Of a stretch of 38,133 nucleotides of DNA, positions 24,985-26,428 are shown piece after piece. A model generated the notes under the pieces. The model was given only the letters and a program-made list of their open reading frames with translations. It was not told where the DNA came from and did no database searches. Numbering within the stretch: position 1 is the stretch's first letter; each line of letters starts with the position of its first letter. This DNA is from Euzebyales bacterium. GTDB taxonomy: Bacteria; Actinomycetota; Nitriliruptoria; Euzebyales; JAHELV01. A program made the position numbers and the translations under genes. The DNA is taken from positions 1 to 38,133 of the forward strand of contig DASUUK010000063.1 of the NCBI GenBank assembly GCA_036374135.1, written 5' to 3'.

Positions 24985-25029
24985 GGCGCGGCCTCCGTCG
25001 CCACGTCGGCGACGGCGGACTCTTGGATA

Positions 25030-25131
25030 GCCATCCAGAGCGGCTGAGGGACCGGCCCGACGACGCCGCCGCAACCGGGTCACGACTGGTGACCGAGGTG
25101 CGAACTCCGGCCCCCTCGGGGGGAAGATGGC
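25030..25131 (+). ncRNA. SAM-I riboswitch (S-box leader) aptamer
   Basis: The region matches the SAM-I consensus. P1 is GCCATC (25030-25035) paired with GATGGC (25126-25131). The conserved core CAGAGCGGCTGAGGGACCGG is followed by CCCGACGACGCCGCCGCAACC, where the GCAACC element is intact. P3 is GGTCAC paired with GTGACC, and the conserved AGGTGC follows, then a CCCCC/GGGGG P4 hairpin and GAAGATGG. It binds S-adenosylmethionine in the nascent mRNA. It sits 58 nt upstream of the threonine synthase start codon. Confidence 0.93.
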
Positions 25132-25142
25132 CGCATACGCTC

Positions 25143-25183
25143 GTCCTCCCTCCGCGCGACCTCAACGCACCCAGTGGAAGGAC
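25143..25183 (+). promoter_or_regulatory. Possible expression platform: Shine-Dalgarno sequestering helix
   Basis: GTCCTCCC at 25143-25150 can pair with GGAAGGAC at 25176-25183, seven of eight bases matching. The second arm includes the thrC ribosome-binding site. There is no T-run, so control of translation initiation is more likely than transcription termination. How aptamer folding would switch this helix is not clear from sequence alone. Confidence 0.5.
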
Positions 25184-25189
25184 GACGCG

Positions 25190-26428
25190 GTGACCTATCT
25201 CTCCGCCCTGCGCTGTCGAGGCTGTGGCAGCGAAGCAGCGATCGCGCCGGCGCATGTCTGCGACCGGTGCTTCGGCCCGTATGAGGCCGTGTACGACTAC
25301 GACGCGCTCGCATCCGACGTCAGCCGTGATGCGATCGCAGCCGGTCCCGACAGCCTGTGGCGCTACCGCCCGCTGCTGCCGGTGCCGACCGATGATCCGA
25401 TCGACCCGGTGTGGCTGGGTGGCGGGTTGACGCCGCTGGTCCGCGCCCCGCGGTTGGGCGCAGCGCTGGGCCTGGACGACCTGTGGCTGAAGAACGACAC
25501 CGTCAATCCGACCTGGTCGTTCAAGGATCGGGTCGTGACCGTGGCGTTGACGGCGGCCAGGGCGTTCGGGTTCACGACGGTGGCGTGTGCGTCGACCGGC
25601 AACCTGGCGAACTCGGTCGCGGCGCACGCGGCGGCGGCCGACCTCGACGCGTACGTGTTCATCCCCCACGACCTCGAGCAGACCAAGGTGCTGGCCAGCG
25701 CCGTCTACGGGCCCAACCTCGTGGCCGTCAAGGGCAACTACGACGACGTCAGCCGGCTGTGCAGCGAGGTGGCCGACGAGTACGAGTGGGCGTTCGTCAA
25801 CGTCAACATGCGGCCGTTCTACGCCGAGGGCTCCAAGACGATCGGGTTCGAGATCGCCGAGCAGTTGGGTTGGGTGTTGCCCGCGCAGGTCATCGCGCCG
25901 ATGGCGTCGGGCTCGATGATGGTCAAGATCGACAAGGCGTTCCGCGAACTGGTCCGCACCGGTCTGGTCGATGACGCGCCGTGGGCGATGTTCGGCGCGC
26001 AGGCGCAGGGATGCTCGCCGATCGCGGCGGCGTTCGCCGCCGGCGAGGACGAGCCCACGCCCGTCAAGCCGGACACGATCGCCAAGTCGCTGGCCATCGG
26101 CAACCCGGCCGACGGGGGCCCGGCCATCTCCGTCGCGCGCCGCACCGACGGTGGCATGGCGGCGGCGGCCGACGATGAGATCGCCGAGGGCATGCGGTTG
26201 CTGGCACGCACCGAGGGCGTCTTCGCCGAGACCGCCGGTGGGGTGACCGTCGCCGCCCTGCGCTCGCTGGCGGCATCGGGTGCGTTGGACCGCTCGGCTC
26301 GCACGGTGGCGGTGATCAGCGGCAACGGCCTCAAGACGGTGGACGCCGTCCCAGCGACGCCGACCGTGACGGTGCGCCCCTCCCTGGACGACTTCGAGGA
26401 GGCAGCGGGCCTGGTCGACGCCGCCTGA
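25190..26428 (+). CDS. thrC: Threonine synthase
   Basis: A 412-residue PLP enzyme that converts O-phosphohomoserine to threonine. The N-terminus has a small zinc-ribbon-like Cys set (LRCRGCG ... HVCDRCFGPYEAVYDYD), typical of this class of threonine synthase. The PLP lysine is Lys112 in NPTWSFKDR, and the phosphate-binding loop is in ACASTGNLANS. The length is normal. GTG 25190 is chosen because GGAAGG lies 7-8 nt upstream; an earlier ATG at 25127 lies inside the riboswitch and is rejected. The SAM riboswitch upstream links its expression to methionine/SAM status, consistent with competition for the homoserine branch, or with a methionine-related activity of this paralogue. Confidence 0.9.
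   Translation: MTYLSALRCRGCGSEAAIAPAHVCDRCFGPYEAVYDYDALASDVSRDAIAAGPDSLWRYRPLLPVPTDDPIDPVWLGGGLTPLVRAPRLGAALGLDDLWLKNDTVNPTWSFKDRVVTVALTAARAFGFTTVACASTGNLANSVAAHAAAADLDAYVFIPHDLEQTKVLASAVYGPNLVAVKGNYDDVSRLCSEVADEYEWAFVNVNMRPFYAEGSKTIGFEIAEQLGWVLPAQVIAPMASGSMMVKIDKAFRELVRTGLVDDAPWAMFGAQAQGCSPIAAAFAAGEDEPTPVKPDTIAKSLAIGNPADGGPAISVARRTDGGMAAAADDEIAEGMRLLARTEGVFAETAGGVTVAALRSLAASGALDRSARTVAVISGNGLKTVDAVPATPTVTVRPSLDDFEEAAGLVDAA

Follow-up and report, generated by a model that had tools for sequence, protein, structure and literature searches.

The locus described here raises the question of why a SAM-I riboswitch stands in front of a gene whose product is called a threonine synthase. It lies in a 38,133-nucleotide stretch of Euzebyales DNA, which was analysed as a whole and is referred to as the window. 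An earlier note on this DNA had offered two answers: either SAM tunes the threonine/homoserine branch, or the ThrC paralogue works in methionine/homocysteine synthesis from O-phosphohomoserine. An enzyme of the latter kind, MetM, is a Streptomyces homocysteine synthase with homologues in cyanobacteria, credited to Hasebe et al. 2024 in the accessible part of PMC12172450. The locus consists of two main features:

25028..25133, + strand: SAM-I (S-box) riboswitch aptamer (RF00162, plus compensatory changes in relatives)
25190..26428, + strand: metM-like gene with a GTG start, 412 amino acids (threonine synthase by profiles; named from profiles, clade placement and discriminating residues)

In an Rfam covariance search of the window, RF00162 was matched at 25028-25133 (+) with 74.6 bits (gathering score 44.4; E 7e-16). 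The match spanned model positions 1-108 of 108 without truncation and was the only one at gathering level within the whole window; it was also the only RF00162 match in the organism's own genome (3.98 Mb). The core motifs GAGGGA, GCAACC and AGGTGC were read in the aptamer. In 20 aptamers preceding homologous genes, 94.1% of the cells were paired over 22 named pairs; double-sided changes were seen at eight of these pairs, and the compensatory changes fell in P1, P2 and P3. The covariation score was 0.265 compared to 0.114 in shuffles, with none of 500 shuffles as high and slid structures reaching at most 0.115. The complete aptamer with named core motifs that the earlier note had placed at 25030-25131, with a covariance-model search as its check, is thus borne out by a full-length match well above threshold and by covariation; its span was off by 2 nt at either end.

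The region between aptamer and gene was inspected for an expression platform. The following elements were assigned:

25117..25130, + strand: P4/P1 3' strand, possible 5' arm of an anti-sequestor helix (duplex with 25141-25154; putative role)
25138..25189, + strand: predicted Shine-Dalgarno-sequestering hairpin (minimum free energy versus shuffles)
25141..25154, + strand: anti-Shine-Dalgarno block, TCGTCCTCCCTCCG (from alignment with locus L087; pairs with the Shine-Dalgarno sequence or the aptamer 3' strand)
25176..25182, + strand: Shine-Dalgarno sequence GGAAGGA (read directly; conserved in L087)

The GTG start at 25190 lies 56 nt past the aptamer, behind GGAAGGA. An ATG at 25127, which gives the longest open reading frame, was rejected as start codon because it is located inside P1 of the aptamer and because the Shine-Dalgarno-GTG arrangement at 25190 is conserved. 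When the 59 nt from aptamer end to start codon were folded, the predicted sequestor hairpin covered GGAAGGA with a minimum free energy of -23.1 kcal/mol versus a shuffle mean of -16.5 (20 of 1,000 shuffles as low) and a mean paired probability of 0.88 for the Shine-Dalgarno sequence. The L087 leader folds likewise (-19.8 kcal/mol; 33 of 1,000 shuffles as low), and in both leaders the predicted sequestor exceeds shuffles only modestly, which counts against control at translation. The alternative duplex between the anti-Shine-Dalgarno block and the P4/P1 3' strand (25117-25130 with 25141-25154) was calculated at -20.6 kcal/mol (-22.6 in L087); this helix is incompatible with P1. Both the anti-Shine-Dalgarno and the Shine-Dalgarno block are kept in L087, with CGTCCTCCCTCCG of the former identical in the two sequences, while the intervening spacer varies in length and sequence. 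No site resembling an intrinsic terminator was found in the leader, and transcription termination was therefore dropped as the mode of switching. The predicted layout fits a translational OFF switch. The SAM-I class is known for SAM binding and for switching genes off, and both properties are assumed here by analogy with that class. Under SAM scarcity P1 would not hold and the P4/P1 3' strand would take the anti-Shine-Dalgarno block, leaving GGAAGGA free so that the enzyme is made; with plentiful SAM, P1 would form, the Shine-Dalgarno sequence would be captured by the anti-Shine-Dalgarno block, and synthesis would stop.

L087 (JAHELH010000132.1) encodes a MetM 86% identical to that of the window, behind a SAM-I aptamer of its own. 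Its contig carries the label Rhodobacteraceae, most likely because actinobacterial DNA was mis-binned, or else through a transfer.

A decayed or non-functional riboswitch would be compatible with the free energy of the aptamer alone, which is unremarkable (z-score -1.21; 23 of 200 shuffles folded equally well), and binding cannot be demonstrated by sequence itself. The high covariance score, the intact core, the compensatory stem changes in relatives and the retention of the leader blocks in L087 although the flanks diverge make such a relic highly improbable.

The protein encoded behind the riboswitch has a zinc-ribbon-like N-terminus (Cys9, Cys12, Cys24, Cys27) and an SFKDR motif with a putative PLP lysine, K112, and is a fold-type II PLP protein. 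It was matched by Pfam PALP and by TIGR00260 (thrC; 264.1 bits, cut-off 167.1), as expected from the claim that a ThrC-like gene directly follows the riboswitch, and the solved structures nearest to it in sequence are those of threonine synthases. Acceptance by a curated threonine synthase profile counts against an assignment to MetM. Upstream of the gene an AI-2E family transporter is encoded, and downstream, on the opposite strand, a SpoIIE-type phosphatase, whose gene ends 23 nt beyond the metM stop codon; with these neighbours the gene appears to stand alone.

A second ThrC, 39% identical to the window protein, is encoded on contig C70 of the same genome. There, thrC is flanked by genes for homoserine dehydrogenase and homoserine kinase in a hom-thrC-thrB cluster, and the RF00162 search of the genome detected no SAM-I element at this cluster. 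Hence the other thrC for which the genome was to be checked is present, together with hom and thrB, and is unswitched. A maximum-likelihood tree was calculated for 49 proteins, comprising the window protein, 16 of 41 metM loci of a first set, 16 of 80 of a second set, 13 ThrC proteins and three of a third type. All 33 metM rows, including the window protein and the cyanobacterial rows, fell on one side of a branch with support 100/99, and the 13 ThrC rows were separated at 100/100. The third type (L179, L180, L181) resembles ThrC, shares 36-37% identity with the window protein and lies outside both metM and thrC. Between the metM and ThrC groups, 28 columns were fixed to at least 90% on differing residues, among them positions beside the putative PLP lysine and others within a segment that is NxRPxYAEGSKT in the window protein and SVNPxRIEGQKT in ThrC, where we take it to bind the substrate phosphate.

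The window gene is thus not the organism's main threonine synthase. It might still be a second true threonine synthase through which SAM tunes the threonine/homoserine branch. The score above the TIGR00260 cut-off speaks for this, as do a cyanobacterial member of the clade with threonine synthase activity in vitro (PMC12172450, accessible part) and a SAM-I target of S. lividans that is listed as threonine biosynthesis in the accessible part of PMC8079986. Yet the canonical thrC with its hom and thrB neighbours is present and unswitched, the protein groups away from ThrC with fixed residue differences, and sulfur-carrier genes adjoin metM in relatives (see below). Moreover, turning off ThrC at high SAM would leave more methionine precursor, which would be control in the wrong direction. 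This answer, the first of the two given in the earlier note, is disfavoured by the unswitched canonical copy and the separate clade, and we regard it as unlikely.

The pairing of SAM-I and metM was followed through 296 genomes of the phylum. With a match threshold of E 1e-80 or better, metM was counted in 108 genomes; matches between 1e-60 and 1e-80 in G034, G057, G179, G195 and G267 and a second match in G275 were excluded, which lowered the count from 113 to 108 genomes. In at least 58 of the 108, SAM-I was located 22-260 nt upstream of metM, and in 22 further metM genomes it was found elsewhere or its position was not listed. The 28 metM genomes that had no SAM-I match among the matches listed count against a MetM-type role for the switched gene. 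Direct scans detected SAM-I at 16/20, 16/20 and 10/20 loci of three sets, the second and third of which were hand-picked; positive loci included Frankia, Nonomuraea and Chloroflexota, and none of four scanned cyanobacterial loci carried it. Within the locus collection, L016 and L088 are apparently one contig, and the genomes behind L078, L079 and L082 are those already represented by L017, L031 and L028. The idea that the pairing is an anomaly did not hold up: it is common in Actinomycetota, and the S. lividans case has been in print since 2021 (PMC8079986, accessible part). The SAM-I/metM pairing is real, well supported and mostly known already; added here are its presence in the class Nitriliruptoria, the prediction of an expression platform and a locus that lacks metO.

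If the enzyme makes homocysteine from O-phosphohomoserine, its distribution relative to MetX and MetA is of interest. Strong MetX or MetA matches were found in 139 of the 296 genomes among the matches listed; MetX was called strong at E 1e-70 or better (103 genomes among the matches listed), and weaker hydrolase-like matches were left uncounted. Both metM and MetX/MetA occurred in 26 genomes, metM only in 82, MetX/MetA only in 113 and neither in 75, corresponding to an odds ratio of 0.21 among the matches listed. By comparison, 212 of the 296 genomes matched the organism's own ThrC at 1e-90 or better among the matches listed. The genome survey suggests that metM and MetX/MetA avoid each other. 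Common descent and the draft state of the genomes weaken this signal, and with related genomes the Fisher p-value of the comparison overstates their independence; the 26 genomes possessing both argue against a MetM-type enzyme.

The organism's own genome is a 96.29%-complete draft in 115 contigs, on which all absences reported for it rest. Neither MetX nor MetA was found in this draft. It encodes a protein resembling cystathionine gamma-synthase (580.2, NCBIfam cut-off 513), which may serve reverse transsulfuration or belong to another homocysteine-forming route and to that extent counts against assigning this task to MetM. A genome of the same genus, G086 (97% complete), had been expected to share the locus; among the matches listed it had no metM and no SAM-I; MetA was likewise missing, and MetX was matched only weakly (1.7e-5). 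The genus can therefore live without metM, another observation that does not favour a MetM function.

According to the accessible part of PMC12172450, S. albulus metM has a SAM riboswitch upstream and is accompanied by metO, a sulfur-carrier gene. Profile searches detected a ThiS/CysO-like gene directly downstream of metM at 26 of 29 loci of the first set and 73 of 80 of the second; it was missing at 3/29 and 5/80 loci, and 2/80 were cut by contig ends. Tabulated across genomes, at least 72 of the 108 metM genomes had an adjacent sulfur-carrier gene. At first, the near relatives G172 and G118 were taken as metO-less, which was wrong, as a search for frames ending in GG misses MetO proteins with extra residues. 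One to several residues past the terminal GG were seen in metO frames of L016, L017, L021, L031, L034, L041 and L086; such proteins would need trimming before thiocarboxylation. No metO or other carrier-like frame was found beside metM or anywhere in the window, which again counts against MetM. Given its occasional absence elsewhere, the MetO carrier is the usual neighbour of metM and not a property of the enzyme.

Candidate carriers were found outside the window. The nearest free-standing one in the genome is encoded between Mec-like and CysM-like genes (mec-cysO-cysM) and groups with CysO proteins in a tree (96/85). On contig C4 (L006:106-1713, +), a sulfite/nitrite reductase carries a C-terminal ThiS/CysO-like domain ending in ALAGG and is followed by a PAPS-reductase-like gene; actinobacterial fusions of sulfite reductase and carrier had been pointed out in 2006 (PMC1779556, accessible part). 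A divergent carrier-like small frame ending in GAIAGG is present on contig C69 (L009:1444-1740, -), in a stretch without Pfam match.

Considered together, these results make it probable that the SAM-I riboswitch controls the translation of a MetM-type enzyme converting O-phosphohomoserine and a sulfur donor to homocysteine, where we infer SAM binding, direction of control, substrate and product, and donor. We favour this function because the genome has a second, unswitched thrC with hom and thrB, because the tree sets the protein apart from the ThrC group and neither MetX nor MetA was found, and because relatives carry an adjacent sulfur-carrier gene and the arrangement matches published metM/metO (PMC12172450, accessible part). 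The RF00162 match with its covariation, the avoidance between metM and MetX/MetA, the lack of a terminator and the conserved sequestor point the same way. The second answer of the earlier note, a ThrC paralogue in methionine/homocysteine synthesis, accordingly gains support from the genomic comparison. O-Phosphohomoserine would be supplied by Hom and ThrB, and the switch on metM would amount to feedback control of homocysteine synthesis.

As metO is absent here, a carrier-dependent MetM would have to borrow its carrier. The probable sulfur source is CysO of mec-cysO-cysM, the carrier domain of the sulfite reductase fusion or free sulfide. We tentatively propose, as a possibility rather than an expectation, that this MetM lineage lost MetO and shares CysO (or the fused carrier), the riboswitch gating the flow of sulfur into the homocysteine branch. 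If true, one thiocarboxylated protein would feed cysteine and homocysteine alike, and metO-less loci offer a clean test of carrier interchange between the two syntheses. Beyond this locus, a riboswitch can correct an annotation: the gene that profiles name threonine synthase most likely serves the methionine pathway. Since SAM-I and metM are found paired throughout much of Actinomycetota and in some Chloroflexota, often in genomes without MetX and MetA, organisms of this kind may be miscalled methionine auxotrophs.

Several known systems can be compared with the locus. In S. lividans, RF00162 precedes SLIV_16930-SLIV_16925, resembling the window in that SAM-I stands before a 'threonine' gene; the accessible part of PMC8079986 (2021) lists the pair under threonine biosynthesis and gives no methionine reading there. 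The ThrC of Microcystis aeruginosa is reported as 51.6% identical to S. albulus MetM and has an adjoining MetO-like carrier gene; in vitro it forms threonine from O-phosphohomoserine and also shows deaminase activity (PMC12172450, accessible part). The same portion of that paper indicates that within the cell the enzyme seemed not to perform the whole MetM function, which counts against a MetM function of the window gene. This moonlighting homologue raises the prospect of a bifunctional branch-point enzyme, a threonine synthase and/or deaminase with homocysteine synthesis as a side activity. The Microcystis enzyme is cyanobacterial, however, and unlike the window gene is reported without a SAM riboswitch in the accessible text, in line with the cyanobacterial loci scanned here (0/4); a bifunctional enzyme at our locus is improbable.

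Canonical actinobacterial ThrC shares with the window protein the type II PLP fold and the same proposed substrate (39% identity for the organism's own copy) but differs in its fixed residues, and the own-genome copy is not preceded by SAM-I. A close likeness to the favoured MetM-type enzyme, by description, is metM-metO of S. albulus, in which a ThrC-homologous enzyme is likewise under a SAM riboswitch (PMC12172450, accessible part). In contrast to that pair, the window metM has no adjacent metO, and its nearest free-standing carrier is CysO. The conversion of O-phosphohomoserine to homocysteine that the accessible part of PMC12172450 reports for S. albulus MetM is the one that we infer, by analogy, for the enzyme of the window.
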